DNA from: Peribolospora baueri
Taxonomy: Eukaryota > Basidiomycota > Peribolosporomycetes > Peribolosporales > Peribolosporaceae
Length of the DNA: 60,458 bases
Direction: 5' to 3'
Assembly (NCBI GenBank): GCA_029717555.1
Contig: JAMDHS010000113.1
Coordinates: 1 to 60,458, forward strand
Below, piece after piece: positions 12,703-55,979 of this stretch (position 1 is the stretch's first letter; the number at the start of each line of letters is the position of its first letter). The notes below the pieces were generated by a model. It ran no database searches, was not told where the DNA came from, and saw only the letters and a program-made list of their open reading frames with translations. The position numbers and the translations under genes were made by a program.

Positions 12703-15700
12703 ATGGGTATCGACTACTTGTCCGCCGCCTCACCATCCGCGACCGAAACGCTGTTCTTCCCCGGCAACGGCAACGGCGGCGGCCCCGCCGGTGGCACCCC
12801 TCCGGGCAGCATTTTGGGGTGGGACGAGGATGGCGTGCATGCTTGGATGTCTGGATTGGGCTATCCACAGTATGAGGCCATGTTCAAAGGTGGGTGTGAA
12901 TGAAGGATACGTGGAACCGTCGGTCTGTGGGCAGAGAGGAAGGGAAAATGCTCATGAGGAAGGCCAGGCAGGAGTGGACGTTTGGAAGGGCAGTGCGGGC
13001 GGACGGCGACGGAGCATGTGGGCAGGAAAGAGCTTGGAGCACGGAAAGATGATTTGTTGAAAGTCTGGCCCCGGCCCTTCGTTCTTACGTCCATTCCTTT
13101 GCTCCCACATCCATGCCTTTACACCCCATATCTCTGTACCCCATGTGCCGTCCGTCGCGTTTTCAGAAAACGGCATCACCGGCGAGCTCCTTGTGCACCT
13201 CGACCACGATGCACTCAAAGACCTCGGCGTGCACTCAGTCGGACAGCGCCTGGCGATCCTCAAGGCGGTATACCACGTCAAGATCGCCCACGGCGTGCCC
13301 GTCGAGCAGGACCATTGGGCCCCTCCCTCGGAGGACTTGATGTCCGACTCCATATCCCTCCCGGACGGCAGCCTTTCCGGATCCATGAGTCAACTCTTGT
13401 CGGATCGGGACGAACGGATACGGATGCTCGAGGGCGAGGTGCTCAGGCTCAACGAGTTCCTGGGCCGGTTCACGGTCGAGTTTAAAGACGTTTGTAGGCA
13501 TATCGGTTTCAAGGTAAGTTGAGACGTCCCTTTCCCCCCCTCCCCTGAATATGTCGTTGTGATCCCCGTCTTTCTTCGACCTCCTCATCACTTTCACCGT
13601 TGCCTTTCGCCCCTTCAGACACCATCCCTCGACTACAATCCGTTTTCCAAAGTCTCCGCATCGTCCTCTGACCCTACGTCCCTCTACCCGACCGCGTCTG
13701 GCGGCTCGAGATTTGCGCCAGGCGAGCGAGGAGCCAACGCTGTGGCTGCGACCATCGCAAAGGCTCAGGGCGAGGCGAGGCGAGCCAAGGATGCCTCTTC
13801 CGGCAACGTCAGCCCCACGACACCCAGTCCAACTCGAACGACGGCTCCTCTCGACTCCGCGAGGGAGGGTGTGGGAATGGCAGCCCTGTCTGCCGGCCCG
13901 CCGGTCACCGTATCGGCCGCACCGAGCCCGGTGACCAGTATGTCTGCCCACGGAGCCACAGGACCAGGTATGGGCGTGGGCGGGAGCATGACGAGTCAAG
14001 CCGGTCCGTTATCCGCCGCGTCAGAGAAGCAATCAACACCCAGCTCTTACTCCAACTACCCCGAAGCGCCCTCCACCGCGCCCCCCAATACTGCCTCCAC
14101 CGCGCCCCCCGCCAGCGAAGCCTCCGTCGGTGCCAGTCCGCTCCCCACCCCATCCACGTCCCTCGCCGTCGCTCCCTCCTCCTTCCGCTCCGCCTCTTCT
14201 TCCTCCTCTTCCCACCCCAGACGAGATGCATCCGGCTCGACGGCTGATAGCTTGTACAAGTCCTTCCGAGTCACCCTCGATGACCCCTGCTACAAGGTGT
14301 TGCCGGCAGCGTTGAAGAAGTACAAGATCAACGATGACTGGCGGCAGTATGCTCTGTTCATTTGCTTTGGCAACACGGGTGAGTCGGTGGCGGCGGGCAG
14401 GTGACGTGTGTCACGGGCAGACGTGGGTCGTTCGTGAAGCTCATCGTCCATTTTGTTTTGTTTCACCGCTCATAGAACGCTGTCTCAGCTACGAAGATAA
14501 GCCACTGCTTATTTTCCAAAAGCTCAAGGAGCAGAAGCAAAATCCCGTTTTCATGGTGAGCTCTTCTGGTCCCTTACCCCCGGACCGCCTTTGGCGGATG
14601 CACGTCGTGTTTGCTCATCCTGTCGTCTTTGACATCGTCGGCTTCGCTCGTCTGCAGCTACGACATATCAGAGACGTCAAGTCCCCGATCGCCATCGCAA
14701 ATGCGAAGGCCGCCGCACGCAAGGCGCCGAACAAGAGCACCCCGGCTGCGACACGTTCAAAGACGGCTGGAGGGTTGACGCCGGCGACGGCCACGACGGA
14801 TGGGCCTTTTACGCCGAGCACTGCCGCCATATCTGCTACAGGGTCGGCGTCGGGGTCGGCGGCGGGGGCTGGGACAGGAAAGTCCGGAGAAGAGGGTGCT
14901 GGCGGCGCGGAGACTCAACGAGGAAATGGTGAGGGAGCGTCGTCGAGGCCGCCGGAGCAACATCGGATGGAAGGCCCGACGACATATGCGATCAGCATTT
15001 ACCCCTATGTGTCGGAGCGGGACGACGAATTTGATGTGAGCGTCGGCGACACGTTCATCGTCCTGTCCAAGGCCAAGGGATGGTGGGTCGTCCAGCGCGA
15101 TCCAGGGGGTGCGGGCGAAGGAGATCCGGATGAGGAGGAAGGTCACCAGAACGGCTGGGTGCCGGCCGGTTGTTTGCTCGAGACGAGCACGCCGCTCGCC
15201 CTATTGGCTGCCGAGACGGATGGAGAATCGGGAGGTGCCGCGAACGGCGGGGCTAAATTGCCGATAGAGATTACGGCCAAGACGCCGATCCCGCCAAGCT
15301 ACATCACCAGCACCAGCACGCCTGGAGTGCTACTCATGGACTATGTATCGCCCGACGACGGCCTGGACCTCAAGAAGGACGACCGGTTACGGGTGTTCAA
15401 GAGGTACAATCATTGGAGTTATGTGAGTGGTTCCCTTTCTCATCTTCTCTCTCTCTGCGTCGCCGTAAACCTTGGTGGCGAAGGCACTGAACGCTCGCCG
15501 TTTCCGACTGGCTACCCGCACCTGACACAGGCGGTAATAGAGACGGACGGCTACCCACGCGGCTGGGTGCCCTCCTGGTTCATCGGCAAGGTGCATTCGT
15601 CCAATTCCTCTTCGTCCGCCTCATCGCAATCCCAGTCGCAGTCCTCATCCGCTACCAAAACGCCGCAGTATCAGTCAGCTTCCTCTTCAGTCCTTCTCGA

Positions 15701-15887
15701 CCACTCGTCTTCCACTCCTCCCTCTTCTTCCACCACCGCCGCTTCATCTACCGCTCCGCCTCCTTCGTCCAATAACACTCTTTCCTCTGCAGCCAACGCC
15801 GGCGCTGGTATCGAACCTTCCAGTCCTGCCACGCCGGTCACTCCGTCAGCGGCGACGCAGCCAGGGGCAGGACCAACAGATGGCTGA
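12703..15887 (+). CDS. UBC2: Ste50/Ubc2-type MAPK adaptor (SAM-RA-SH3-SH3)
   Basis: Scaffold linking Ras/Cdc42 signals to the MAPKKK of the mating and filamentation cascade. Six exons, 12703-12889, 13167-13513, 13619-14378, 14476-14555, 14658-15422 and 15531-15887, give 831 residues. Order: SAM domain at about 40-103 (HAWMSGLGYPQYEAMF through DLGVHSVGQRLAILK), which in this family binds the Ste11-type kinase SAM; a short coiled coil at about 135-172; a Ser/Pro-rich linker; a Ras-association domain at about 385-470 (YKSFRVTLDDPCYKVLPAAL); SH3-1 at about 568-635 (ISIYPYVSERDDEFDVSVGD, later WVPAGCLLE); SH3-2 at about 681-735 (VLLMDYVSPDDGLDLKK, later GWVPSWFIGK); a Ser-rich tail. Ascomycete Ste50 lacks SH3 domains, whereas Ustilago Ubc2 has them. 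All exon phases agree. Confidence 0.9.
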
Positions 15888-22833: not shown

Positions 22834-24338
22834 ATGCGCGCCAGCACGGCCTCCCTGGCGGCTCTCGCCTCCTCCTCCCTCCTCCTCGCCCCCATCGTAG
22901 CCGCTGGGCCTGTGGCCCAGGTGCTCGCTCCGAGGTCAGGGTCAGACTACGTCTCCTCCGCCCAGCTGAACCAGTCCCAGCAAATCGTCTACAAGGACCA
23001 CGAGGCCATGGGCACGCCCACCCCTGCGCGGCGCGACACCAACGCCGCCCCCACGCCCATCTCCAGCGCTATGCAGGCTCAGTACTCCACTATCGCCAGG
23101 TTTGCGGCCGCCGCCGAGTGCCCTAGCGTCGCTAACGGCTGGACCTGTGGTTGTGAGTAAGAGAACTTTTCGGCGTTGACCAGCGGCAAAGAGATTTGCA
23201 CGCCGCTCGGACTACCAGAGGTGGGGGCGTTCGACTGGGTGCGGCCATGCTCACGCGTCGCCCTTTCTCCGCCTTGAATAGCCGCCTGTGACGTCGACCC
23301 CAAGACTCAAGTTATCTGGCACGGCGGCGACGACAACGCCACGCCCTACGGTGAGTCCCCGCGCGTGCGCATCGTCTACACGGAGCGCAGGGAGAGCTAG
23401 AGCTGAACCCGTCAATCTGTGTCGTGGCTGTACAGCCTATGTGGCCTACTCGCCGGCTCAGTCCGCCATTGTGGTGGCTCATCAGGTGAGCAGCGGACGA
23501 AATGCGTACGACGGCGACTTGCGTCCATCCTCACGCTCACTCATTTTTATCTTCTTATTCCTGTCTACCTCCGCTCGCCCGTGTCGCAGGGAACCAACAC
23601 CTCGTCCCTCCTCTCCATTCTGGACGACGCTACGTTCGTCCCGTGGGGCCTCGACTCTGACCTGTCTACCTACGGTAATGCCCCCACTCCTACGGGCACT
23701 CCGATGGTGCACTCTGGCTTCCAGAACACCTTCTCCAACACGGCCGCAAGCGTACTCTCCGCCGTTCAAACCGGGTTGTCCAAGTACCAGGTCAGCAAGG
23801 TTATCGTCACCGGGCACTCGCTTGGCGCGGCCATCTCCCTGCTCGAGGCGGTCCACATGAAGGAGAAGCTGGCCACCTCTGTGAGCATTGTGGCCAACGT
23901 CTTCGGCCTCCCTCGTGTGGGTAACCAGGACTTTGCCAACTGGGTCGACGCCATGTACCCTCCCGCCTTCGCCTCCACGACTGCTTTCTACCACCTGGTG
24001 GACGCCAACGACATTGTGCCCCACCTGCCTCCCGAGGACTTAGGCTTCCGCCACCCGTCTGGAGAGGTATTCATCAACCCCGCTGGATCCAACTCTGCCT
24101 CGTGGTGTCCCGGCCAGGAGGATGACCAGTGCTCGAACCAGTACAGCGCCTTGTCCCTCAGCACGAGCCCGCATGATGGGTGAGTGCGGGCGCGGAAGAG
24201 GTCTCTTTGCTTCGCTCTTGGGCTCCGTATGGTTCGCTGACCGATGACTCGTCTGTCTCCCTTTCCTCGGCCCCCCGGTTCCTCTTCCACAGTCCTTACT
24301 TCGGCCAGCCGATGGGCGGCTCGTACGCCTGCTCGTGA
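22834..24338 (+). CDS. Secreted class 3 (fungal) lipase
   Basis: Extracellular triacylglycerol lipase or feruloyl-esterase-like hydrolase of the alpha/beta fold. Five exons, 22834-23152, 23282-23350, 23436-23485, 23590-24179 and 24293-24338, give 357 residues. A signal peptide occupies about the first 25 residues (ASLAALASSSLLLAPIVAAG), followed by a short pro-like region with a possible dibasic cleavage site (PARRD). The nucleophile elbow is VTGHSLGAA with Ser near residue 223; the Asp is probably in YHLVDANDIVPHLPP and the His in SPHDGPYFG near the C-terminus, the order expected of class 3 lipases. HSGFQNTFSN just before the elbow is also typical. Several cysteines (CPSVANGWTCG, WCPGQEDDQC, YACS) suit a disulfide-bonded secreted enzyme. 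All splice phases agree. Substrate preference cannot be told. Confidence 0.93.
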
Positions 24339-28399: not shown

Positions 28400-28751
28400 C
28401 GAGGGCGAGCGTGACCTGGCGTCGTGGAAGGGCCGCTTTGCGAAAGGACGTCGACCTCGACGTCGACCCTCAAGGTGTGTGTAGCGCGCCAGCTGTGTTC
28501 CGAAAACAGAATAGAGCATTAGCACTTGTGTTACCTAAGACAATAGGCGGGCATAGACGGAGATGATGGGGGATGTTCCACGCGACAAACCATTCACGTG
28601 ACACGTGCCGCAGCCCATGCGAGATGAGCCTCTCCACGTGGTTAGGATGATCGGCAGCTCGGATTTCTCGAGTCGACATCGAACGGCAAACGGCTTCGAC
28701 GTCGGACGGCGACGACGACTTTGATCGACCAAGGCGACGACGACGGCGGCA
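28400..28751. promoter_or_regulatory. 352-nt bidirectional promoter, permease / SURF1
   Basis: Divergent start codons at 28399 (-) and 28752 (+) share this stretch. It holds two CACGTG E-boxes (28593-28598 and 28634-28639) and an overlapping CACGTG-like TCACGTGACACGTG stretch near 28592-28605. No TATA box is evident. Confidence 0.5.
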
Positions 28752-30340
28752 ATGTTGGAGAGATTGTCTTCCGCGCCCCTGCACGCCTCTCTGCGTGCCT
28801 TCGCTCGACGGACCGCTCTTGCGCCCGTCACAGCTGCTCCACGCCGCTCTCTCCCTGCGCTGCCACCCGTCTGGCCTTTGCCCAAGAAGAATGTTCGCAC
28901 GGGCATCATCAGGCCGACGACGTCGGCTTTCTCCTCTCGCCCCTTCTCCACCTACCCACCCGTCCGCTCGGCTGCGTCGGGATCACGGACGTCTTCGTCG
29001 GGCAAGCAACGCCGGATCTACCTGTCCCCTACGACACTAGTCCTCGTTTGCGTTCCCCTCCTCACGTTCGCCCTCGGAGTGTGGCAGGTGAGGAGGCTCC
29101 GATGGAAGGTGAACCTCATTCAGGAGCTCGAAGATAAGCTGCACAGGGAGCCCATGTCCTTGCCGAGGAGGATCAAGTGCGTCTGGCTTGTCTTTGTTTG
29201 GTCTTCCCTTCAGACAAATCGGTTAGAGCGCAGCACTGACGGAGACGTCTCCATTTCCATTGCCCGATTACCCGCCCCTCCGTCCGGTCTTTTCTCTCTC
29301 GCCGTTCCTCCCCGTGGACGGGGGACATTGGAACGGCTCTGTAACAGCTTTGAAGCGCTGCCCGAGTTTGCCTATCGTCTCGTCCGTCTGACCGGTCGCT
29401 TCGACGAGGGCCGGTCCATGTTCGTCGGTCCAAAGGTGCGGGAGGGCGTTAACGGCTACCATGTCGTGACGCCGTTCGAGCGAGAGGGCGGCGGAGGCAA
29501 GGTGCTCGTCAATCGGGGCTTTGTGGACGGTAGGAAGGTGCGGGACGTGGGCGGTGGAAGGAAGGCGTTGGTCGGGCCTGCCGAGGTGCGCTGCGCGCGG
29601 TTTTTTTCTTCTTTCTACAGCACCGCTTCGGAGATCGAAGAAGACATATGGACGTTGAACATGCTTCTTTTTCTTTTTCACACCCTCCCCCTTGACCGAT
29701 ACAAGTCCGGTCCAGTGAGCTTTGTAGCGATGCTCCGCACAGCCACGCGCCCAAACATGTTCACCCCCGCCAACGACCCGGCGACCAACACATGGTACTG
29801 GACCGACGTGGACGCCATGAGCCAGTTCAGCTCGACGGGGGACGTGAAGGACGAGGAGACGCGCGTCCTTCCCGTCTTGCTCGATCAGGTATTCGGTGAG
29901 CCGACTTGACTTGACTTGGGTACGTGGCTTGACCGAAGGGAAACCAACCAACTAACCAACGTCCGTCCGTCCTTCCTTCCTTCCTTCCTCCCTCGTTTCG
30001 CCTCACTTCTTACCATCCTGACGCAACGCAACGCAACCCAAGACGGCAACGCCGGCGAGGCCTCGGCCCGCGTCGCCAAGGGCGTCCCCGTGGGACGCGC
30101 GCCTTCGATCGAGCTGAGGAACCAGCATCTGACGTACGCCGTGACATGGTGAGCGAAGTTGGCGCAGCAGCACAGCAAAAAAGAAAAAGAAAAAAAGAAG
30201 AAAAAGCAAGAAGAGGGAAGGAGGAAAGCCGGTTCGAACCGGATCTCATCCTCTTCCTTCCTTCCTCGTCTTGCAGGTTTTCGCTCTCCGGCGCCACCTC
30301 TCTCATGCTCTTCCGTCTCTTGCGGAGAGGGCACAGCTGA
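28752..30340 (+). CDS. SHY1: SURF1/Shy1 cytochrome oxidase assembly factor
   Basis: Inner mitochondrial membrane protein that helps mature Cox1, including heme a insertion, during complex IV assembly. Five exons, 28752-29176, 29348-29585, 29706-29895, 30043-30148 and 30277-30340, give 340 residues. An Arg/Ser-rich, acid-poor N-terminus of about 85 residues is a mitochondrial presequence. Transmembrane helix 1 (LVLVCVPLLTFALGVWQ) is followed by the SURF1 signature VRRLRWK. Next come YRLVRLTGRFDEGRSMFVGP, GYHVVTPFER, VLVNRGFVDGRK, a MLRTATRPNMFTPAND-WYWTDVDAM block and LRNQHLTYAVTWFSLSG at the second helix. All are conserved SURF1 landmarks in the correct order, and exon phases agree throughout. 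It pairs functionally with CMC2 elsewhere in the window. Confidence 0.95.
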
Positions 30341-31652: not shown

Positions 31653-34179
31653 TCACGTCAGACCAGTATTACGTAGGTTGCTGAGCAGGCCGGAGGGGAA
31701 GGGGACACAGGCGATGGTGTTCCGTTACGAAAAAGGTGCAAGATGAGTATCAACATGCAATGGTCGCGCGACGTCTCGGCGGGCGCGTGCGCCAACGACT
31801 TACTTCCTCAGGATGGTATCATTGACGCTGAGTAGGATAGCTTTGATTTGCTTGGTGGACTGGCGAGCGGAACGGGGGGAAGGGGGGGGGGAAAACAAGT
31901 GAGTCGAAACGGGGGGGGGACGAGTGAGTCAAAACGGCGGACGGGACGGGGGGAGCAGAGAAAAGGAGAGGGAACAGACAGTGGCGACGGTGGTGTGGAC
32001 GTATATCGGGCGCTGCGGCGCGGCGGAGCGTCTGCTGCTGACGACGGCGCGGAAACGGGAGCGGAAGTACCTCCAGACATAATCTTGCTCGTTTGGGCCT
32101 TGGGGGAAGGGGAGAAGCGAGACGGGGGTTCAAGTCAGGACCGGGACGAGGCAAAGAAAGAAAAGCGACGACGGGACTGACCATCATAATCCGGGAAATA
32201 ATCCTTAACCTGAATACCAGCCCTAAGCTTCTTATCAAGGATATCAATCTTGTTCAAAAACAGCACCAACGAGACGCTGTTCAGAAGCGGGTTGGAGACG
32301 ATCTGGGAAAAGAGTTCGAGCGAGTCGTTGATCCTGTTCACGCTCGGGTCTTCGACGAGCGTTTGGTCAAAGGCCGAGATGGGGGCTAGGAAGATGATGG
32401 CGTGGGCGTCGTCAAAGTAGGGTACCCAGAAGCTGCGCTGGTTGCGGCTGCCGCCGACGTCGCAGATGCGGTAGGCGATGTTCTTGTCCACGACGAAGCG
32501 CTCCTCGGTGATGCCGACGGTGCGAACGCGAGCGTGCAAGATGTCGTCTGTGGGGAAGAGCGTGCCGTCAGCGTTCGTTCCACATGCGCCAGTCCAGGTT
32601 CGTCGATCATCGAAAAGCGGCGCCGGTCTCACCATCGGTCGGGAAGTAGTCCGGGTCCGCGATGCGGTCGATGTTGTCGAGGAAGCTAGGATGGAGGGAG
32701 AAAAGAGGTGAAAGAGCCAATTAGCGAAAAGCCTGCGAAAAGCAAGAGGAAGGACCGGGATGGAGGACTCACTAGACGGCCGAATCCATGTGATCAAGGC
32801 TGCCGCGCTTCCTCAACATGCGCACCAGCGGGTCCTTCCAGAGGTCGTGGATGTCACCCTTGGTCGCGCTCAGCATCCTCGCAGGGTCTTCCTCCCTGCT
32901 CAGTGGGGTCTCCCCCCACCTGTCGTGGGCGTGAGAATAGCTCTTCGAACGATCCCGGCTCGTCGGACTACTGGCCGACTCGCTCGTTCCGTGCGCCGCG
33001 GCCATGGCGGCCGCTCCCGACGGCATGGGCGGAAGGTTAGCGGATCCATCACCGGCCGAGGAAGGCTTGCGAGATGCAAGAGCGGAAGAGGACTTTCGGC
33101 GGCCGAGAGAAGGGATCCGGAGACCGCCACCACCCCCACCACCGCTGCCGGCGGACTGCGTTGTCGGGGATTCGGAGTCTTCGTTACCGGACGCGCTGGG
33201 CGAGTCGCCGCGGTAGAGGCTTCCCATGTCGCTGCCCTGGTCTTCCGAGCTTTTGCCGAGCTTGCTCAACAGGCGGTCCTGCCAACCGGCGCGGAGGAGG
33301 AGGGTGCTGCCTTTGGTGGCCTTGTCGCCGGGAGTGGAGGCGCCGGAGCGGGCCCAGCCGGCAGAAGGACCGCCGAAAGCGTCGTCACTGAGATCGACCT
33401 CGTCGCCAGCGGCTCCGAGCCGACGACGGAGGCCGGGCTCGAGGGAGAGGAGAGGGGCGAAGCGGAGACGGGCGAAGAGGGCCTTGTTGCCGCTCGAAGC
33501 GGCGGCGGCGGGTGCCTGGCCGGACTGGCGTTGAGGGCTCGCCGGAGCGGCGGGGTCGACGGGGGAAGCTGCTGCTCGTCGGAGGGAGCTGGTGGTGAGT
33601 TCGCGGTCGATGGGCAGGGTGGGCGAAGACTGTCCACGCTCCTCCTCCTCGTAGGCGTCGAGGGCCTCCACGAGGCAGCGGACGGCCATGATGACGTTGA
33701 GCTGGACGAGAGCGCGCCAGCTGTAGCGCTCCCGATCATGGGCCGCGGGGTTGTACAAGAGCCGCATCTGTGGGAGAGGAGGGGGAGAGGAGAAGTGAAT
33801 CCAACCGTCCGTCTCGATCGACGTCATCGCCAGCGCGTGCTGACCTGTTTCAAGATGGTCGTCTTGCCGGCGGCGGCTTGACCTGCATGGGGAGAAGGGA
33901 GGAGGTCATGAGACACGACGCGGGGGAACAGCGGCGGGAGAGAAGGTACTGACCGAGAAGGAGCATCTTAAACTCGGAGCTTCTCTCCTTCTTCCATCGC
34001 GCCGCCTCTTCCTTGAGCTTCTTGTCGATCTCCTCGCTAATCCGCTTGGCTTCGGCCTCGGCCTTGAGGCGGTCCGCTTTCTGGGCGGGTGTCTCGCCTG
34101 GGGGGGGCCGGAGGACGGAGGCGAAGGGGTCGTCGGAGAGGGAGGTGCGGTGTGTCGGCGATTGCAAGGCCGACGGCAT
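31653..34179 (-). CDS. Atypical heterotrimeric G-protein alpha subunit with a long insertion
   Basis: GTP-binding signalling protein. Exons on the minus strand: 34179-33954, 33882-33845, 33767-32773, 32685-32633, 32547-32182, 32098-31980, 31859-31804 and 31680-31653, all in phase, 626 residues. An N-terminal helix rich in Lys/Glu (AEAKRISEEIDKKLKEEAAR) is normal for G alpha, but the MGC lipidation start is absent (MPSALQSP). P-loop: LLLGQAAAGKTTILKQM near 73-89, where the usual sequence is GAGESGKST. The helical domain holds an insertion of about 250 Ser/Gly-rich residues (about 134-385). Then come the helical-domain end (DSAVYFLDNIDRIADPDYFP), switch I LHARVRTVGIT with the catalytic Arg and the Mg-binding Thr kept, switch II DVGGSRNQRSFW with Ser for the catalytic Gln, NKID, TTVAT, and a C-terminus NNLRNTGLT. 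Confidence 0.9.
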
Positions 34180-39042: not shown

Positions 39043-41135
39043 ATGGCCGCCCAAGAGGACCGTCAGCCGTCCGGACCTCGTGCCGCCGACGACGCCGGCT
39101 TGGAGGGCCTTCAGGACATCGGGAACAGCTTGCCGGACGTCGACCGGCGTGCCCACGGTCCTCCTGCCCCGTCCTCGGCCTCCGGGAGAGCTTCAGAGGC
39201 TCCGGCGGGCGACGACGACGCGGTGGCCTCTTCCTCCTCCCGTCCTACCTCCGCCTCCCTCAACCTCCCCCAGTTCGATCCCGCCTCGTATATGGCTCGT
39301 CTCAAGGCCGCCGCCGCCGCTGGCGCCGCATCCTCTTCCCCCGATCACGCCGCCGGGGAGGAAGAAGGAAGGGAGGAAGAGGGCCAAGTGGCTCTTGCGC
39401 CGCCGCCGCCCCGACCCTCCGACTCTGTCGCTTTGTCCCCTCCGCCTACCGTGGAGGGTCTCATGAGGGCGGGGCAGAGCCCGAGTCCTGACGGCACGCC
39501 CGCTACCACCCCGCGGCTATCGGAAAAAGCTTTGGACGAGGAGGAGCAAAAAGCCGGGCCAGGTCCCAGGGCTGGCGAGGAGAATCAAAAGTCGTCTGAA
39601 GGTGGCGGCGATGGCGATGCCGAGCCGCCCGCGGTTCCTTCCAAGCACGAATCGCCCGGCCTCGCCGTCGTCGCGCCTCCTGCCTCTCACTCCCGATCCC
39701 CTTCCAGCGCCTCTACGTCCTCCCGCCATCGTCACTCTGAGCTCCCACCTCTTCCGCCCGAAGCTGGTCTCCCGTCCGGCGGCGGAGAGCACGCTTCCGC
39801 CGGCGATCGACCCCAGCCCGCTCTTCCGCCTGAGACGCCCGCCGCTTCAGCATACCCGTTTCGCTTCCCAGCCGCGCCAACCAAGCGTGATCCCCCTCCA
39901 CCGTCATCCGGCCGTCCCCAGCCCAAGGTCGACGCGTCCTTGACCTCTTCCCAGCCGAGTGCGTCTGCCGGTCCAAGTGCATTGCAAGGCGCCAAGGGCG
40001 TGGGCGAGCAGAAGGGCAGCTCGGCGAGCTCCATCCCGGAGCAGATCAACACCCCGATCAGCCCTTCGGAAGAGACGATGAACATGGTCGCCAGCGCCTT
40101 TCGTCGCGGTCCCAGTCCGCTCGCCACGGGATCCACATCTCGCCCGAGCACGCCGAAGGAGAAGGCTTTACCGACCGAGCCTGTCTCCGCCTCGATGCCG
40201 CCTGTGACGCCCCGGACGGGTTCCCGGGGCGGGTCTTTGAGCGGACAGCAGCTCGCGGCCATGGAAGGGGGCGAGAAGCGATCGAACTCGGACAAGGGGG
40301 CGAACGCGGCCACCGCGACGCCATGGTCTTCGAGGGTGGACGAGGTGCCGTTCGACTTCAATCGGTTCTTGGAGCAGATGAAACATCGGAGCGCGCAGCC
40401 TGTCGGGGAGTACGTCCGAAGGTGAGAGGCGTTCCTCAAGTCTCTTCTTCTTTCGCGTCCTGTGCGCTCGCTTAGTTGAGCGTTCCGCCGTGTGTGCGTC
40501 GCATTCAGTTTCATCAAAGGGTTCAGCAAGAAGCCATATCGGGTCAACGACCAGATCAAGCTGATCTTTGACTTCCTCGACGTGAGCGTCCGCAGTCCCA
40601 CTTTCATTTCCATTTTGGACCACTTCGACTGACCCCCGTCGTATCGTATCGTCGCGCGTTCGCATCTCTTTCGAACCCCACTCTAGTTCATATCCGAGCG
40701 GATGCGCGAATGCGAAGTGTGGCGGGACCTGTCCGAGCGCGAGTTCGACAACGCCACCGAGGCGATGGAGAAACTGGTCATGAATCGATTATACCCTTTG
40801 TCAGTCGTTCTTCCAGTCGCCCTCTTCGGCGTTCCGTGTCGTTTCATGACCTGACCGACTGGTTATCTCTCTTTGACAGCACCTTCACCCCCGTCGTCGA
40901 CCGCACCCGCGGTCCGATTGTCACCGATGACCTCGAGCGCGACCACGTGTTGCGCCAACGCATACGATTGTTCAACTGGATTCGCGAGGAACACCTCGAC
41001 GTTCCGACCGGCGAGCACTCGGCCGGCTTCATTTCGTTTGCTCAGCAGGGTGAGCATCGTTCCGCCGTCTTTAAGACTTGAAACATGTCATGCTCAGTTT
41101 CCTCCGCGGCGGCACTCGCACTCGTACTTTATTTC

Positions 41136-41208
<73 letters not shown>

Positions 41209-43011
41209 CGTTTGTCCCCGTAGAACTGCTCAAAATTAACCATTACAAGGCGCCTCGAGACAAGCTCATCTGCATTCTCAACTGCTGCAAGGTCATCTTC
41301 GGTGCGTGGCCTCCCCGTCCGTCATCTCGCTTGACCTTCCGCGCTCCACGAACGAGGCTAACGTCTGTCGCTCGCTCCACAGGTCTCATCCGCCATTTGT
41401 CCGGCGAGGAAAACGCGGACACTTTTGTGCCTGTGCTCATATTCGTCGTGTTGAGGGCCAACCCTGAGCATCTGGTCTCGAACATAGAGTATATCAACCG
41501 CTTCAGGAACCCTGATAAGCTCAGTAGCGAGTCGGGATACTATCTATCGAGTTTGGTGAGGAGGATCTGCCTTGTTTGTTTGTTTCTTTCTTTTCTGACT
41601 TGGTTGACCATGACGTTTATTCTCTTCCTGCTTGTCTCTTTCAGATGGGGGCCGTCTCTTTCATCGAGACGATGGATCACTCCTCGCTTTCCAACATCAC
41701 TCAGGCAGAATTTGAACGGTGAGCCGACCTGTCGGCTCGACGTCTGTCTCGGTGACATGTCTCACAACGGGCTCACATCTCTCTTTTTTTTCTTTCAGAA
41801 ACGTCGAAAACGCCGTCCAGAACCTCGCCTCGGCGCCTCCTTCTCCGAATCCAACCCATTATCCCGATTCACAGCAGAGCCTCACCCTCCCACCGTCCAC
41901 CTCCTCTGGCGAAGACTCTGCGAGGGCCTTGCCTTTCACGCCGAGCAGCAACACCTTCGCCGACGACACTCGCGCTTTCTTCGCAAGGACAGGCGAACGT
42001 GCGGGCGAAGTCGGCAAAGCGGCGGCGGCCGGTATCAGCAAACCGCTGGGAGTGATTGGTAAATTTTTCAACGACGCGGTCGAGCAAGCGCGATCGCCTG
42101 ATTTGGCAGGGAAGAGCTCGTCGTTTCCACGACGCTTCGGCGGATGGCCGTTCGAGAGCGGCGAGGACGAGAGTGGGACCGGCGGGTCTGGCGCGCGCGA
42201 GCAAGACCCCAATTGGGGATCCGCTTGGTCCCGGTCGTCCAGACCGGGCACGGGCACGGGCCAGCCCCAGCAACATCTCGCTCCAACGCCTCTGCGACAG
42301 GGCCCACCGTGGCTGCAAGACCGATATCACGCGGGGAGCAGCGGCATCGGCACGCCGTCTGACCTTGGCGGTCTCTCCCCCTCAGCGAGTCCGGCCCCTG
42401 GGACGCCGACGCCGGCGGACCGTGATTACAGCCCATCTCTCAGTCCAGGCTACCTTCAACAGCACCAGCAGCCGTTCGCGTCAGGCTATCCGGGTGCTAA
42501 CGCTCGGCAACGGTATCTTTACGCCCAGCGGGAGGCACTGCAGAGCCATTTGTATCGCCAAGCCGGTGACCGACAGCAGTACCGAGACCGAGACCCGCCG
42601 AGCCCCGTCCCGACGCCCCAAGACCTACAGGCAATGACGACGCAGATCGACCACGCGGCGGCGGAGCGGTTGCGTGCGGGCGTGGAGACTCTCAGGAGCA
42701 TCTTCCCGGACGTTGAGGAGGTGGTCTGCGAAGGCGTGCTGGAGAGCGTCGAAGGCGACGTCGGAAGGGCAGTTGAAGCGCTATTGGAGATGAGTCAGGC
42801 GGCTGGCGCCGGAGCCGGACGCTCACCGAATCCGGCGGGCGAGTCGCAGAGTCGGACGCCGGCCGACGACGCATTCGGAGCCTATGAGCATGGCGAAGGC
42901 AGGGGGGTCACCGAGCCAGGCCCCCCAGTTGGAGACCTTATCGACATCGACCTCGGGGAGGAAGGTGGGGACGCAACAGCGCCAGAGGACAAGGAGAAGG
43001 CCTCGTCTTGA
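39043..43011 (+). CDS. VPS9: Vps9-domain Rab5 GEF with C-terminal CUE domain
   Basis: Exchange factor activating Rab5/Vps21 on endosomes. Eight exons, 39043-40421, 40509-40581, 40687-40799, 40880-41049, 41224-41301, 41383-41555, 41645-41718 and 41799-43011, all in phase, 1,090 residues. About 445 disordered Ser/Pro-rich residues precede the helical bundle and VPS9 core at about 460-690 (FIKGFSKKPYRVNDQIKLIF; HYKAPRDKLICILNCCKVI; ENADTFVPVLIFVVLRANPE; LVSNIEYINRFRNPDKLSSE; SGYYLSSLMGAVSFIETMD). The ADTF-P and ESGYYLSSL motifs hold the catalytic Asp and Tyr regions of the family. A CUE domain at about 978-1021 (LRSIFPDVEEVVCEGVLE then GRAVEALLEMS) would bind monoubiquitin, as in yeast Vps9. The fourth intron contains a 72-nt T run. 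Confidence 0.95.
41137..41208. repeat. 72-nt uninterrupted T run inside a VPS9 intron
   Basis: T41137-T41208 lies in the intron 41050-41223, ending 15 nt before the acceptor AG. It is the longest homopolymer in the window. Confidence 0.9.
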
Positions 43012-44388: not shown

Positions 44389-47300
44389 ATGAAGGTCGCC
44401 ATCGTCGGAGGCGGGCCCTCCGGTCTTGTCACGCTCAAGACAATTCTAGACTTTAACCCCAACATCCATGTTGAAGTGTTCGAGGCCGAAGATCAGTTGG
44501 GCGGAACGTTCAGTGAATATGATCCGTTTGTCAAGCAAGGGCGAACGGACGAGCGAGCTGATCGTCCTTCTCCTTTCATTACCTGAACTCGTTCCCCAGG
44601 ATATCGCTCGTATGATGTGAGTTTCTTTTTCTTATCACGTCTGAATTAGTTTTCACATATTCATCTTAGGATTCGTTCCCATCGCCAGAATGCGACCCTC
44701 GTCTCCTCCAAGCAGTTGACCGCTTTCTCCGACTTTCGCCTTCCGCTGTCCCATCACGACCATCTCTCTCTTCCAGAATACGTCCAATACCTTGAGGACT
44801 ATGCCGACCGTTTCTCTCTCCGTCCTCATATTCACTTGTCTACGCGGGTCACCAAGGTCCGCCGAGGCACGGATCTGGAGGGAGGGGGACATTTTCTCAC
44901 CTATGTGCCCACCAAGGGAGGCCGGCTGATCGAGGGATTGACGGGAACTACCATTCACGTTTCCCATCTTGCAATTTGCACGGGTCTGCACGTGGTGCCT
45001 TCCATCCCTGACGTTCCTGGCATTGAGCATATCCACAACAACACCAGTGAAGGCAACGAGGACGGGAGCAAGAGTGTCGCTTTTCATAGCGCAGAGTACA
45101 AGAGCAGGGATCAGCTGAAGGGAAGGAGGGTGCTCGTCCTTGGCACCGGCGAGACGGGTATGGACGTCGGATACGAAGCTGTCAAAGCTCCAGCAAAGTC
45201 GATAGTACTGTGCACTAGGCAAGGGTAGGCGAATGTTTCGGGGACGAATCAGGTGGCAACCTTTGCTCGAGAGCCAAGCTAAACAGCACAACCGCGCTCC
45301 TTCACCCGCCCCAGCTTCCTCTCTTTCCCAGCAGTACTGAGCGACTTCCAAGTCTTGGGCGTCAAGTTTGATGGTCACCTGCCCATTGACGGCCTCATCA
45401 CCAACCTCTTCGAGACAGCCAAGGTGCATCCTTGGGTTGGCCAGAGCCATTTACGGTGGTACGTGGTGCCGTTGCACTTCTCATTTGGCTGCCTACCCTA
45501 TGAAGAGGCAGATGTATGACTGGTCTTGCGTTTTGCTTTGCCACAGGTTTGTAAGCGACTTTGTCATCAAGAGATTGCTCTGGGTGCTGACGGGGACGCA
45601 AGCGGGATGGTACGTGCATTGGTGTGGTCTGCAGGAAGTTCCAAGCTCTTATTGATCATGGTTTTCGACGCACACTCTCACAGCAATCAATGGGTCGGAG
45701 AGTTGCCCCCTGAGCGGCTAGGCAGGGCTTACGTCTTTCTCAACAGTGGGTCAATCGTATCTGTAAGGATGTCGTTGCAGACGTGTCAGTGGTGACGTTT
45801 GGTTTCGCCTCTGATCCGTACCAGAGTCGGCCAAAGCGATGCCATACCTCAACCGCCCATACAAATCCCGCCCTGCTATCTTCGAAGCATTCGCGCGGTA
45901 CCTCGACCCTCCGGACTACTCCCCAGACGAGCCAGGCATCGATATGGCCCCCTTCCCTGACCACATCCTTCCCTCCGGCAAGGTCGTGTTCCAAACCTCG
46001 GGAAGGAAGGAGGCCAAGGCGATGATGGGAAGAGATATCAGACCCGAGGTTATCGTTTTCGCTACCGGTTACACTCAGGAGTGGGATATATTTACAGAGG
46101 GGGAATATCCCGTGCCCAGGGAGGCGGACGTGAGGGACGTATACAAGAGCGGGGACGAGAGCGTCGCGTTCATTGGGTTCATTAGGCCTGGCGTCGGTGA
46201 GTCGCGAGGATTATGGGACAGCAGTGCTGTTCTATCGTACGTCCTATTACATCACTCATTCGTTCTGCTCGACGCTGTCGATCTATTATAGGAGCCATTC
46301 CCCCGATTGCGGAGATGCAAGGTGAGCGCACATAGCCCTTAACTTTCATTGTCATTACCGTACCTGTTCAGCGTCGCCAATCTATAACGCGCGCTCTTCC
46401 GTCATTCCAGCCCAGTTCTGGGTCCTCACGATCCACCAGAAAATCCCCAAGCCCGTATCCGAGCCTTACTATCACTTGCTCGTAAACGATGATGCGAGGA
46501 TCAAGGTGGGTCCGCGTCCAAAGCACCTTAAACCTTCTTGAAGATGTGGCGCCGCCGACTGACTCTTACGGAACTGCGAACGAATATCGTGTCGCTCAGT
46601 ACGCTGTTGACTACTCAACCTGTAAGTCTTATTCAACACCGGTTTACCTCTTTCGGCCCGTCTTTGGCCCGACTCGCTCCCCGCTACCGTTACTCATTCG
46701 GACGGACTCGGCCGTTCTCTAGACGTTTCGACGTTGGCCAGAGACATGGGTTCCGAGCCTGGCCTCTTCGAGCTTTGGTGGACGTACGGCTTCAAGGTGC
46801 TCTATGTCTTCTGGTGAGATATCAATGCTTCACCAGCGTCATTTTCAATCTCAGCAGAGCAGCCTCTGATAGTCACATATGCTCCACTTCCTCCTCCTTG
46901 GTTCTCTCTGGTCTACCCCGCAAGCTTCGGAGCGGCCTTTACTCCCTTCTACCGTCTTCTCGGACCTTGGCGCACGCCATCTGCCGTCGAGACCACGAAG
47001 ACGGAGCTGTACGAGACCATAGTCAGGCGTGGAGTAACCGGCAACTTGATGATGGGGGTCAGTGATCGGCTTTTTTTTTCCTTCTCTTCTTGATTCCTTC
47101 GCTTCGTTCATCGGTAGCGATGGGCTGTCGTGGACCTGCCGTCGTTGCGCGCTTGCCCCGCTCAATCTCTCTTCGTTTGTCCTTGGCCTGATGATCTCCA
47201 GGTCATCCCAATGGCCTTCTACGCCGTCGTCAACTTGCTCACCCTGTGCCTCGAGTTCGTCCTCCGTCTCGCCGCGCCCTGGCTCGGTCTGGACGTACCT

Positions 47301-47878: not shown

Positions 47879-50800
47879 TTAAATGAAGTTACCGGCCATC
47901 GTCCGTTTGGGGGTCTCTGCCGCAGGAGCGGGTCCGGGTCCGACAGCAGCCTGGGATGGGGCTGTTGTGGCTGCCATCCCCTCGACCAATTTGTCAGGGT
48001 CCAAGCCTGTTTGGAGGAACTGTAGGACCAAAGGCAGCAAGCTGTTCTGCTGACACGTCACCACGATGTCCTGGCCGACCGTTGGGCCCGCGGCCGTGCT
48101 CGGCTGAGGAGGCGGCTCTGGGTAGGCGATAGAGGGCCGACTGGAATAGTTCTTGCCAGAGCTGGGCTGGGCAGATATGGGGTCTTGTCCCTGGTGCATC
48201 AGGTCCTTCTCCAGCCTACCCGCCCCAGTGCTGGCGTAATACCGTCGGCTGACGGATTGACCACGAGCTAGAGCGGCGGAACGAGAGTCTTTCTCTCCCG
48301 AGGCTGTCGCCGGACTTTGGCCAGGTCGTCGTGGTGCGGGGCGACGGTCTTTCGATAGGCCTACTGACGGCTGCTCCTCTGGGGCGATCAAAGCATCCCG
48401 GAGCACTTGAAGTGCTATTGCCTCTGCTGCCCTGCGCGCCTTCAACGAGACACCGTTCGTCACGGAGGCGGGATCCGCTTGCTGTTTACGGGTTTCGATC
48501 TCGCGCTCTATTCGGTCCTTCAGCGCTTGTACCCACTGTTTGCGTGACTGCGCGCTGTCCAGGCTGAACATGTATTTGCGCTTGCTGCCCAGGTGGTTGG
48601 TGAACGCGAGGTTGAACGAATAGCGCATGAAAGCGCGCTCGACGGTGAACGTCTTGATGGTCGGGATGCCAGCAATGGCAGGCGAGTGCGCACCGATTCG
48701 GACGAACAGCACCGACCGCGGCCCAAGGTTAGTGCTGAACATTTGGAACGTCTGTCGTTCGTTCTGCGAAAAATCTAGGATTCGTGGCTCGAAGGTGACA
48801 CCGTATCCTATCAGCTTGACGAGGAGATTGACGGGCCGCGGCAGGGAGATGGTAAAACTCTGCGGCATGCCGTACGTGAGCTTGTTCGGCAATGGTGGTT
48901 CGATGACGGCCTGCACGAGTCTGTTCGTCGCGTGGGGAGGCGGCGCCTGCGCCAACGGATCTCTGCGAATGCTCGCGTACATGTCGGCGAGCTGGTCATC
49001 ACGCACCGCACCCTCGGGATCTCTTCCGCGGGAAGCGATGACGAAATCGTCTGACGAGATGTGAGGGTTTGGCAGGCCAAAGGTGACCATGCTGGCGCTG
49101 TCCTCGATGTTCGAGTGCAGGAAATCGTTCAGCTCCATCATAGCCCAAACGAGACGCTCGGTGAGGTCTAGCGTAAAGGACCGCGGTAGAAGCGGAGCGT
49201 TGGCATCGTGCCACCTCGAGACGAAGGCCTTGAGCAGCTTCTCGAACGGCGGGAGAGCAGTAGGGAACCGGATCGTCAAGAGGAAGCTCCGTAGGGCATC
49301 CAGGATTGACACGCTGATGAAACGGAATCGGCCAAGATAGGCGGCCAAAAGCACCTCGTTGCCAGGGGCAACCAAATAATTTACGAGCTGCCCACGGTGC
49401 AGCTCTGGTGTCTGGAAGAACAACCGAGCGATCATGACGGGATCGTTGGGCAAGCCGGCCTTGTCGATGATGGAACCGACCGCCTGACCGGGATCGACCT
49501 CGAATTCTTGGATGAACGCGGTGGTGATGGGGTGTTCCTTTTTGATGGGGCTAGGGTCATCGTCTTTCGGCACGCTAAGTCGCAATTGATGCAGCTCCAC
49601 CACGCTCTTCACAAGGAAGCGCCCGCCGAGCGTCGGAGGCGCCGGCTCCACTTCCTGGGACGCGCCTTCCACGTCATCCCACAACGGCTTGGCGATGACG
49701 AGGATGTCATTGAACAAGAAAAGGTAGCGGTCCTTGATCGTGTTCGCATTGACGACCTGCACCACGGCCGAGTGGAAGAGCAGACGCCGCGGCGGATCAC
49801 TCAACCCGCCCAAGCCCGGCAAGCCCTCTACCGCGGAGGCCATGCTCGCTCTTTTCGCGCCTCCCGGGAGCAGCTGCTGTCCGACGGCGGAGTTGAATCG
49901 CTGCAAGATCTGAGCCGTCGCCGGCGTGAACGCGTGCTCGTTCTCCAGCGGCGTTTGAGCGGACGTGCTCCCGATCGACTCGCTGACCGACTGAGCCGAC
50001 CTGGACGAGCTCATCCGAGAGAGGCCCGAGAAGGATGAGTTGCGAGACAGCCGCTGAGCAGTATCGTCGGCGAGATGACGGCTGGAGAGGCTCGTGTCGG
50101 TGGAGGCGCCCATGGTGCCGTGTGAGTTTGTCCTCGACAGGGACGCCGCGGACAGCTTGTTGCTGAGTCGGACGGCCCCTCTCGGGTCCCCTTCGCCAGA
50201 ATGAGCGTTCGGGTCGGCCACGCGAGGCGACGGTACCGGTGACTTTCGGTCAACCTGCGAGTCCTTCCGTTTCAGCAAGTGCGCAAACACCGAGGGTCGT
50301 CTGATGGAAGCAGAGGTCGACGACGACTTATTTGGGTGGCTTTCTGGCCGGTCCGTCCCGTCTGCCGTTGCGCTTGTTCCGACCTGTGCGACTGCTGCAC
50401 TCGTAGGCAAACCTTGCTGTTCCGTCGGCTTGAAAAGGCCCGGGAACGGCATGAGTTTGTCGTTGGAGTACATGGCGACCAGTTCGTTGGCCGTCGCTGG
50501 CGGCAGGTGAGGTTCCGGTGCTAAGGGTGGGAAAACGTCGCTCAGAGTATGCTGCCGACGGTGTCCAGCGTTGCCAGCAGGAGGAGCCGCGAGAACTAGA
50601 GTCTCCTCATGCGCCGGAAGCTCACGCTCGATCGATGCATTCCATGGCTCCTCCGTCTCCTCAACCTTGTAGCCCAAAACGGGGGGAGCATCGACCCGTG
50701 GTGACTCCACTTGACGCGCCTTTCCGCTTCCGGAGGGCGTCGATGCGAACTCTGGGGTTGCAGGCGCACGCGGAGAGATCCTGGCATCCCGCGGTTCAGG

Positions 50801-53236
50801 CATCGGCGGAGGTGCCTCGCCCTCCCGGCTCTTCGCCCGATCCTTAACCTTTGCCGATCCGTTAGGCGGCGACAATCTTCTCTGGCGGGCGAGCCGATGC
50901 AGTTTGCCCGCGATCTTGTCGACCTTGGCGAGATATCCCTCATCCAACTCCTCCCCGCCTTCGTTATCGCTTCCAGCCACGTCCCAATCCGACAGGCTTT
51001 CGGCGTCGCTCGTGGCTCCTCCTCCGACGGTGCTGGCGCCGACAGACCGACGAGACATGATGCTCGCGCGCCTGGACGAGGGAGCGGAGGGGCCCATGGG
51101 TCCGAACTCGGCGATGAAGTCGGAACCGAGAAGCTCGTGAATACGAGCGCTGGCCGCATTCTTCGCGGAAAAGGAGGCCGATTGGGGAGACAGATTGGAG
51201 GGAGACAATTGCGGGAAGGGGTTGACGACAGGAGTCGCTTGCTCGTCATGGCCTTGTGCGTCGCCAACATGAGTTGCGGGCGAAACGTCCACGTTGACGG
51301 CGGGAACATCGCAGATAGTGGAGGCGCCGGACGGCTGTCGCAAGTGAGTTTCGATGCCTGCCATCGTTCCGTTCGCGGAGGGTGATCAGATCCATCGCCT
51401 TGTGCTGCAAGTCGCCAAGTCCAGGAAAAAAAAATTCAACAACCACTCACCTAAGCCTGTCGGCCATCTTCGAACTTGCTCGCTTTCGTATTGCGTCACA
51501 CGGCCACTCTGCTCCGGCTCGTCGCTAAGGAGACTTGACCTCGCGCTGCTCTCTGCGTCACCCTCTTCCTCGTCCTCCCCGCGCCTTCGCCCTTGCGCAT
51601 GAGAGGACTGCCTTGGCAGAGGTCGGAAGCGGGACTCAGGACTCGAGCTCGATTCCTCCGCATGCTGCAGTCGTCTCCTCTCAAGCTGAGCTTCCCAGTG
51701 CTCTCCGGCCGTGTACGTCGGCCTACCGTCAGATCGATCATCCGAGCTATGGGGTGAGCGGGACCGCCTTGCCCGACCTTCCTTCGTGACCTTCCCTCGG
51801 AACGAGTGACTCGGGTACGCCGAGCTCGTCGCAGAGCTACTTCCGGGACTTCCCGTCCCGACACCTGACCAAGCAGCTCCCGCGTCCTTTTCCCTCTCGC
51901 GAAGCAGCTTCTCGTACTCGAAATTATCTTCGCCCACGAGGCGCGCCATCGCACTGTCCCGATCCCTCTCCATCGTGTGTCGCCGAGAGCCGTTGGACGT
52001 GGCTGAGAGACTACCGGTTGCAGCGTGGTGTGGAGAAGAGGACTGATATGAAGACGCAGAGTTGGGGATGGAAGAGGTGGAGGATCGTCTACGGAGGCGA
52101 GAGGTTGAGAATGACGGTGACGACGAGGCGAAGCCTGACGTAGCGATGGCAGGGAGTTGCGACCTCTGCGAGGTCGAGGCCTCCCGATGGTAGTTCGCAT
52201 CGTCGCCGAGCGAAGGCGAGAGCGCGTCTTCGGAACGCTCGCCGCCAGTGTCTTCCTGTCTGTCAGCGTCGACGGCCTGACCTTGCCGAGCGCCACCGGC
52301 ACCTCGACCTCGGCCGGAGAGCTTGCGAATCATGGCCGACCTCGCGACGGTTCGAGGGTCGGTCGACACCTCCTGAGCAGCCTCGTCGGGGCTGGCCGCT
52401 TGTTTGTCCCCCAGCTCTGCCGCAGCCATAGAGTCCTCGCCGCCTAGAGTAAAGCCTCTCCGCCTGCCACGAGAGGAGACTGCCCCGCCAAAAGCTCCGG
52501 AAATGGTGTGGCTCCGCCCAAGCGTGGTTGCTCCGAAACCTCCGATACCAGGGAAAGGTGCCGTCAGCGGGGGAAGCATCTCGCCCCTGGTGATGGCCTC
52601 TTCAAACTCGGCAGCCGCGCTTCCTCCCATAAGCTTCTCAAGCGCGTACGCTCGGGCGGCCTGATTGGCAGCGGACGCGGAGTTGGAGCGTCCGAGGCCG
52701 GCGCTAGCTTGCTTCGCTTGGAACTGAGCTTGAAGCGCTTCCAGAGACGGAAGAGGCGACCGCGAGATGGGATACGGAGACACTCTCCCTGGAGGGAAGG
52801 GCGTTCCCGGAGACCCCAGGCTGCCTGGGATGGGCGAAGGGGCTCCAGGGTCGCTTGGAGTGGTGGCTCCAGAGAGCTGAAGGAAGCTCGACTGCTGGGC
52901 GGCAGACGCAGCTTCATCCCAATCCTGATAGCCAGGCGCATCAGTGCCTCCTCCGTTCGCGTCCGGCGTCTGAGCCCGACTGGCGGCGCGACTGACAGAG
53001 CCGCTCCGGCTCCTCGCGCTGTTCTCTCTTCGCAGCTCACGCTGGGAGGCCGCCCTGCGCAACTTGGCAATAGCCTGCGACCGGGAATTGGCGCGAGAGA
53101 GCGCAGTGGCCGGTTGTGTGACGCCGTCTGCCGGCTCCGCGGCCGCGGATGCGCTGGCTGACGCGTCATGAAAAGGGGGCGGGTGCGACGAAGGATAGGC
53201 ACCTTCCCCGTCCATGGCAACTTGGTGGCCGTCCAT
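47879..53236 (-). CDS. Sec7-domain protein with PH-like regions
   Basis: Two exons, 53236-51451 and 51357-47879, join in phase (donor GTGAGT at 51450, acceptor at 51359-51358) to 1,754 residues. The first 1,100 residues are disordered and Ser/Ala-rich with many RxxS sites. Then come a PH-like segment at about 1120-1195 (LLFHSAVVQVVNANTIKDRY then LFLFNDILVIAKPLW) and a Sec7 domain at about 1205-1345: GSIIDKAGLPNDPVMIARLF, GNEVLLAAYLGRF, ILDALRSFLLTIRFPTALPP. A second PH-like region at about 1395-1540 ends KYMFSLDSAQSRKQWVQALK. Sec7 domains catalyse nucleotide exchange on Arf GTPases at Golgi or plasma membrane. Here the place of the catalytic PGEAQ loop reads PTALP, so the glutamic finger seems missing. 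I join the two frames because only 21 nt separate one frame's stop from the next ATG, leaving no room for a promoter. Confidence 0.82.
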
Positions 53237-55440: not shown

Positions 55441-55979
55441 AGAACCTTCTTCGGACGCCCATCAATGACTTCGAAGCTCACGGGGGAAATCGCTTTCTCA
55501 ACCAAATTCCAATTACGTGACGACAGTTTAGGACGCACACACCCCTTTGGCGAATTGGGTACGTGAAGAAGACGGTCCAGGAAATCCTTTCCTTCGTGGC
55601 GTAGCTATTAGTACAAGTTGAAGTTGATGCCCCCCCGTTGGAGAGCGAACGAGCGAACGCGAACGGACGGCCAAGGTCGTGTGCTTTTTTAGATCCCACC
55701 CCCACCCCAGCACGTCCCATCCCATCGTCCGCGCGGCCAGAGAGAGAGTCAAACGAGGCGAGCAAGAAAGCAGGAAGAGCGAGAGAGCGAGCAGAGCGAT
55801 TCGCGAACGTGAGCGAGGACGGGGGCCCGGGTAGAGGGGCGGAGAAAAGCGGGAGCGGGGGAGGATGGCGAAAGGGGAGAGGAAGGGGAAGGTGCGGGTA
55901 TCATATCGCTGGGAAGGAAACAGATACAGTAGACAGAAACCGAGCCAAAACGGTGCCAGCGGTGCGTCCGCGAGCGGGC
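55441..55979. other. Intergenic region right of the retroelement
   Basis: Between the pol remnant and the 3' end of the MFS gene. No domain or repeat recognised; purine-rich at about 55740-55870. Confidence 0.4.

Follow-up and report, generated by a model that had tools for sequence, protein, structure and literature searches.

The window analyzed here is the whole 60,458-nucleotide stretch, positions 1 to 60,458, of contig JAMDHS010000113.1 from the basidiomycete Peribolospora baueri. It carries on its minus strand a gene whose product is, by its sequence, unmistakably a G protein alpha subunit (Gα). In this protein a serine occupies the position of the catalytic glutamine in switch II, the P-loop has lost its glycine and its glutamate, and a long Ser-rich insertion interrupts the helical domain.

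The Gα gene and its catalytic residues

The gene runs from an ATG at 34179 to a stop at 31653. Its eight exons (Table 1) join into one stop-free frame of 626 codons, so that the 626-amino-acid (aa) model with agreeing exon phases, proposed in a preliminary description of this DNA, was reproduced. All seven introns are of the GT...AG type and span 71-123 bases, the acceptor of intron 5 (CCCAAG) being of a less usual kind. The predicted protein belongs to the Gα family of Pfam, PF00503, with a score of 324.1 bits against a cut-off of 48.8 (E 1.3e-96). Searching its sequence against the Protein Data Bank (PDB) gave 419 distinct sequences at E <= 0.001, the top one with E 2e-58, and the best 60 of these 419 matches are animal-type Gα proteins, natural or engineered. 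Over the last 212 aa it is 39% identical to a Gq chain and 41% identical to a Go chain, the latter being an engineered protein that reads DVGAQ. A helical domain is present between G1 and G2, where both flanks of the insertion align to Go and Gq.

Switch II reads DVGGSRNQR at aa 467-475 (plus-strand coordinates 32461..32435), within the longer stretch DVGGSRNQRSFW at aa 467-478. Its alignment with DVGGQRSER of Gq needs no gap and keeps in register the Trp that lies 11 residues beyond the Asp, and this places Ser471 at the position of the catalytic Gln. We also considered an insertion before the final QR (DVGG-SRN-QR) and excluded it, as the gap-free alignment holds Arg, Arg and Trp in register. 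Consequently, where the G3 motif DXXGQ would supply the catalytic Gln, this protein has DVGGS, and the loss noticed in the preliminary description is confirmed. Not one base of the serine codon AGC matches the Gln codons CAG and CAA at the same position. A different splicing pattern is unlikely to bring back the Gln, since the motif sits well within exon 5.

The P-loop, GQAAAGKTT (aa 76-84), is interrupted by intron 1. The conventional G1 consensus is G(A/T/Q/P)G(E/D)SGK(S/T) (PMC8584482), and three of its eight positions are off: Gly is replaced by Ala78, Glu by Ala79 and Ser by Ala80. Two further residues, the second-position Gln and the Thr that follows the Lys, agree with the consensus. 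The absence of the P-loop Glu, which the preliminary description stressed, was borne out by Ala79; the more telling change is that of the Gly at the Ras Gly12 position, which is Gly42 in the Gαi1 numbering that also gives Gln204 (PMC3285607). G5 departs from (T/G)(C/S)A as well, reading TVA with a different middle residue, while the Ala and the flanking Thr are retained.

Much of the remaining nucleotide site is intact. Switch I carries Arg444 and the Mg-binding Thr447, G4 is NKID (536-539), and the protein also has TVAT (596-599) and ends in NNLRNTGLT, all as had been claimed from the sequence earlier. Lys82, Thr83, Asp467, Gly470, Arg472, Arg475, Trp478 and the final helix are kept too. By this comparison, the residues serving Mg, guanine and the Arg finger are retained. 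Elsewhere, Val448 stands where Gq and Go carry the latter Thr of TTG, and both aligned chains have Arg-Lys in place of Ser476/Phe477. We take Val448 to correspond to Gαi1 Thr182, and Ser476/Phe477 to Lys209/Lys210, sites that presumably lie at the face binding Gβγ and the regulators of G protein signalling (RGS).

Helical-domain insertion and N-terminus

A Ser/Gly-rich interruption of the helical domain of about 250 aa had been reported for this gene. The insertion is present, and its size was corrected to a net 231 aa by alignment to the Go chain 7ts0_A. It contains 17% Ser, 15% Ala and 12% Gly, compared with 7, 9 and 3% in the rest of the protein. No Pfam family matched it at E up to 1, and only two PDB matches were obtained (E 0.09 and 0.38), which we judged to be due to chance; the insertion was thus rejected as a known domain. 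It was likewise rejected as a tandem repeat, with just three short arrays of 21-29 bases found, one of them in intron 2. Single-sequence structure prediction for exon 3 alone returned a mean pLDDT of 44.2, with most residues below 50, a quality too low to serve for comparing folds. The weak helices in that model (Table 1) offer a hint that the insertion may not be wholly disordered.

Coding potential was scored as codon log-odds trained on 1950 codons from other open reading frames (ORFs) of the window with Pfam matches. The gene frame came top in all five overlapping 100-codon blocks of exon 3, although the margin was weak in one (0.19 vs 0.14) and the last block scored only 0.06. The whole insertion reached 0.137 per codon; the highest value among 500 base shuffles was -0.037, and the next-best frame, on the opposite strand, scored 0.016. 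A 373-aa ORF lies antisense to exon 3, on the plus strand at 32760..33881. As the codon bias favours the Gα strand, this ORF is probably a GC-rich by-product and not coding. Together, the codon bias through the insertion and the intact frame indicate a gene that looks maintained and not decaying, in agreement with the preliminary description; the alignment of its fold to Gα proteins adds further support.

The opposite-strand ORF and the low score of the last insertion block are what one would cite for a decaying gene whose catalytic residues have drifted, or for an error in the model, with an insertion left unspliced or mis-joined. Both possibilities have to contend with eight exons that join in frame and remain stop-free over 626 codons, with codon bias for the gene frame in every block of exon 3, and with a remaining fold that aligns well to Gα proteins. 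We consider them highly improbable.

At the N-terminus the protein begins MPSALQ. It has no Gly2, and its only Cys residues are at 119 and 466; the missing MGC start noted earlier was therefore confirmed, and the 626-aa model carries no MG or Cys lipidation signal at its N-terminus. Given this start and the lack of Cys before 119, neither myristoylation nor N-terminal palmitoylation would be expected from the model. Myristoylation is not universal among Gα proteins. An upstream myristoylation exon was sought in the roughly 2 kb upstream of the gene, where three ATGGG sequences occur and none reads MGC or MGxxxS/T. The ATGGG start at 36154 begins MGGCKP and is neither tied to the Gα gene nor excluded from it.

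Table 1 Features of the Gα gene, in positions of the window
Feature	Coordinates	Strand	Description
Exon 1	33954..34179	-	MPSALQ start, charged N-terminal helix region, beginning of the P-loop
Exon 2	33845..33882	-	Remainder of P-loop GQAAAGKTT; Ala at the Gαi1 Gly42, Glu43 and Ser44 positions
Exon 3	32773..33767	-	Helical domain, aa 89-419; contains the insertion
Insertion	32877..33656	-	aa 126-385, facing 29 residues of the Go chain
Possible helices	33408..33491	-	aa 181-195 and 199-208; weak, exon 3 model
Possible helix	33258..33290	-	aa 248-258; weak, exon 3 model
Exon 4	32633..32685	-	FLDNIDRIADPDYFPTD, runs into switch I
Exon 5	32182..32547	-	Switch I, switch II DVGGSRNQR, switch III, NKID
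Ser471 codon AGC	32447..32449	-	Catalytic Gln position (Gαi1 Gln204), from gap-free alignment
Exon 6	31980..32098	-	Alpha4/beta6 region up to TVAT (guanine contact)
Exon 7	31804..31859	-	Most of the C-terminal alpha5 helix
Exon 8	31653..31680	-	NLRNTGLT C-terminal end and stop

Proposed working of the protein and its alternatives

Signalling through Gα proteins is usually seen as a GTP timer, which laboratory Gln-to-Leu changes disable. In the protein described here, the three changed sites (the catalytic Gln, the P-loop Gly and the P-loop Glu) appear to point the same way. As the nucleotide-binding residues are kept, we infer a GTP-loaded state with very slow turnover. Our model is that of an atypical fungal Gα which would still bind guanine nucleotide and magnesium, and whose GTP hydrolysis would be so slow that the protein is mostly GTP-loaded in the cell, unless exchange is slow too. 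Lacking a lipid anchor, it would probably be soluble or retained by partner proteins. Rather than on a fast on-off cycle of receptor and RGS, its signal would depend on the amount of protein, on its partners and perhaps on modification of the Ser-rich insertion. For this reading as a whole, in which binding, hydrolysis, loading, solubility and mode of control are all predicted from sequence, our confidence is slightly better than even.

Natural GTPase-poor proteins provide precedents. Gα1 of Naegleria fowleri has the P-loop TAQ, with Ala at the same Gly and Gln at the same Glu, and its GTPase was measured to be slow; grafting TAQ into Naegleria Gα2 lowered hydrolysis, accelerated activation and abolished acceleration by RGS, and loss of the P-loop Glu, which contacts the Arg finger, was linked to the control of nucleotide exchange (PMC9283941). 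The present protein shares with Gα1 a natural Gly-to-Ala change and the lost Glu; it differs in having QAA in place of TAQ, and the accessible portion of that paper mentions neither a lost Gln nor such an insertion (PMC9283941). Rnd2, which carries Ala at 12 and Ser at 61 just as the present protein does at the equivalent sites, is listed as GTPase-defective (PMC8072805). This likeness bears on mechanism only, since Rnd2 belongs to the small Rho GTPases, lacks the helical domain that the present protein has and is listed as farnesylated; moreover, Rnd has Ser59 where the present protein has Gly469 (PMC8072805). Because the P-loop Gly is Ala and these precedents exist, the suggestion in the preliminary description that the protein hydrolyses GTP slowly or is GTP-locked is strengthened, and we regard it as plausible.

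Several observations weigh against the GTP-loaded reading. Gαi1 G42R is not GTPase-deficient, yet it cannot reach the active state (PMC3285607), so that a changed P-loop Gly alone need not mean a protein that is always on. In plants, maize CT2(Q223L) proved to be a weak allele that is not constitutively active, Arabidopsis GPA1(Q222L) retained Gβγ binding, and XLG2 is an example of how an atypical Gα can end up nearly nucleotide-free (PMC8584482). Within the protein, some residual hydrolysis is likely because Arg444 is kept, and Asn473 and Gln474, which lie close by, could help Arg444 to maintain it.

Phosphorylation control of the insertion is also weakly founded. Three motif patterns were counted in the insertion and compared with shuffled sequences, and each was enriched: R..S/T occurred 10 times against 4.9 (p 0.011), S/T-P 8 times against 4.5 (p 0.049) and (R/K)(R/K).S/T 3 times against 0.8 (p 0.038). 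Per 100 aa, this amounts to 3.85 for R..S/T and 3.08 for S/T-P; the corresponding values for three further Ser-rich stretches in the window are 2.29-3.03 and 2.39-2.80. As the densities are similar, the motif counts give no firm support to control through the insertion.

Hydrolysis might also be retained by another route, in which an RGS-type partner supplies a polar residue or Asn473/Gln474 takes over. RapGAP supplies the missing residue to Rap1, which itself lacks Gln61. A working switch is suggested by the retention of Arg and Thr in switch I, both Arg residues of switch II, NKID and TVAT, and Asn473 and Gln474 lie only two and three residues past Ser471. On the other hand, Val448 and Ser476/Phe477 are changed at what we take to be the Gβγ/RGS face. 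In Naegleria Gα1, the P-loop Gly and Glu changes weaken hydrolysis as well, and Gα2 carrying TAQ lost its RGS response (PMC9283941). We therefore regard retained hydrolysis as unlikely.

Loss of several G1 residues, a long Ser-rich addition and the missing lipid anchor would also suit a protein that does not cycle at all and acts as a scaffold or Gβγ sink, like plant XLG2. A strong Gβγ sink is disfavoured by the changes in the basic switch II residues that presumably contact Gβ. XLG2 itself binds GTP poorly and functions even when GTP binding has been mutated away (PMC8584482). Both the present protein and the plant XLG proteins are oversized, atypical Gα proteins with altered nucleotide motifs; in the plant proteins, however, the additional part forms a long N-terminal domain that bears a Cys-rich motif, while here it lies within the helical domain and more of the nucleotide motifs are retained (PMC8584482). 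No long N-terminal extension or Cys-rich motif was found in the present protein, whose P-loop starts at residue 76 and which has two Cys in total. A scaffold or sink seems improbable to us, to much the same degree as retained hydrolysis.

The behaviour of Gαi1 G42R raises a further alternative, that of an inactive, activation-blocked Gα serving as a dominant-negative partner. G42R binds and hydrolyses GTP and cannot take the active switch conformation, an effect that was ascribed to the charge and steric hindrance of the Arg (PMC3285607), whereas Ala is small. In addition, Naegleria Gα1, with Ala at the same site, is activated by GppNHp (PMC9283941). We find a blocked protein very unlikely.

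If the GTP-loaded reading is right, a natural gene maintained with changes at the Gln and at the P-loop Gly alike would point to a fungus that lives with a Gα unable to time itself, and one could ask how such a signal gets turned off. For genome annotators it would be a caution that control by receptors and RGS should not be assumed for every fungal 'Gα'.

Relatives and neighbouring genes

Gα proteins with altered catalytic motifs have been reported from Dictyostelium, Naegleria and plants (PMC8584482). For Ustilago Gpa4, which the preliminary description cited as a divergent extra Gα, mutant phenotypes are described (PMC7766764). Compared with the four conventional Gα proteins of Flammulina filiformis, the present protein has in common the Ras-like and helical domains, the switch I Arg and Thr, NKxD and the C-terminal helix; it differs in length (626 aa as opposed to 339-355 aa), in having GQAAAGKT for the classical GXGESGKS and DVGGS for DXXGQ, and in lacking an MG start (PMC9030616).

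The collections scanned for relatives were viral, prokaryote and plasmid sets without fungal genomes, and the results have no bearing on rarity. With the 626-aa protein, none of 101 pattern matches in viral contigs and none of 175 in genome contigs were confirmed; with a three-row alignment, the same held for all 113 matches in viral contigs and all 436 in genome contigs. A tblastn search of plasmids with the 212-aa C-terminal part gave no match.

We presume that basidiomycetes have many little-studied proteins with a Gα domain, in which the switch II Gln is replaced by Ala or Ser and the helical domain is enlarged and Ser-rich. These proteins would resemble the present one in an N-terminal 'DPF...ETP...EAEA.RIS..ID' and in 'PYFDD.AIIFLAPISAFDQ' after switch II, and presumably keep the P-loop GQxESGKS. 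If so, the gene described here would be a member of that family whose P-loop has moved further, and the Gly-to-Ala and Glu-to-Ala changes may be special to it. On the same grounds, Gln-less Gα proteins are probably widespread in basidiomycetes though little studied. One might go on to envisage a basidiomycete class of soluble, permanently GTP-loaded, RGS-uncoupled Gα proteins, controlled through their abundance, through partners or through a modified helical-domain insertion, as a counterpart of Rnd that evolved independently of the plant XLG proteins; we put this forward tentatively, as a possibility more doubtful than the reading of the single protein.

Among the literature matches listed, with most subscription papers outside the scope, no Gln-less basidiomycete Gα was described. 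The accessible portions of PMC3606632, PMC10106355 and PMC8161036 contain nothing on such proteins, and a text search of PMC4469406 gave 0 matches.

Other genes of the window were noted in passing. At 28725-29906, on the plus strand, an ORF matching the SURF1 family lies apparently tail-to-tail with the Gα gene. Consecutive plus-strand ORFs at 13061-15884 carry SAM, RA and SH3 domains and resemble a MAPK adaptor of the Ste50/Ubc2 type, and within this region a second SH3-like end, GYPRGWVPSWFIG, was recognized by eye near 15549-15590. Ubc2 has two C-terminal SH3 domains, and a title cited in the same source describes a basidiomycete-specific C-terminal extension of Ubc2 (PMC7766764). The presence of such an adaptor gene supports a basidiomycete origin of the DNA.

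VPS9 and CUE domains occur in neighbouring ORFs at 41082-43008 (plus strand), perhaps as a single spliced gene of the Vps9 type. On the minus strand, a long ORF at 47882-51385 has a Sec7 domain, weak PH matches below the cut-off and a Ser-rich N-terminal part, and a 1483-aa Ser/Pro-rich stop-to-stop ORF at 3437-7885 has no Pfam match at E 0.001. The remaining matches are to a class 3 lipase (23407-24180, plus strand), an FMO-like monooxygenase (44650-45225, plus strand) and a sugar transporter (55531-57868, minus strand).
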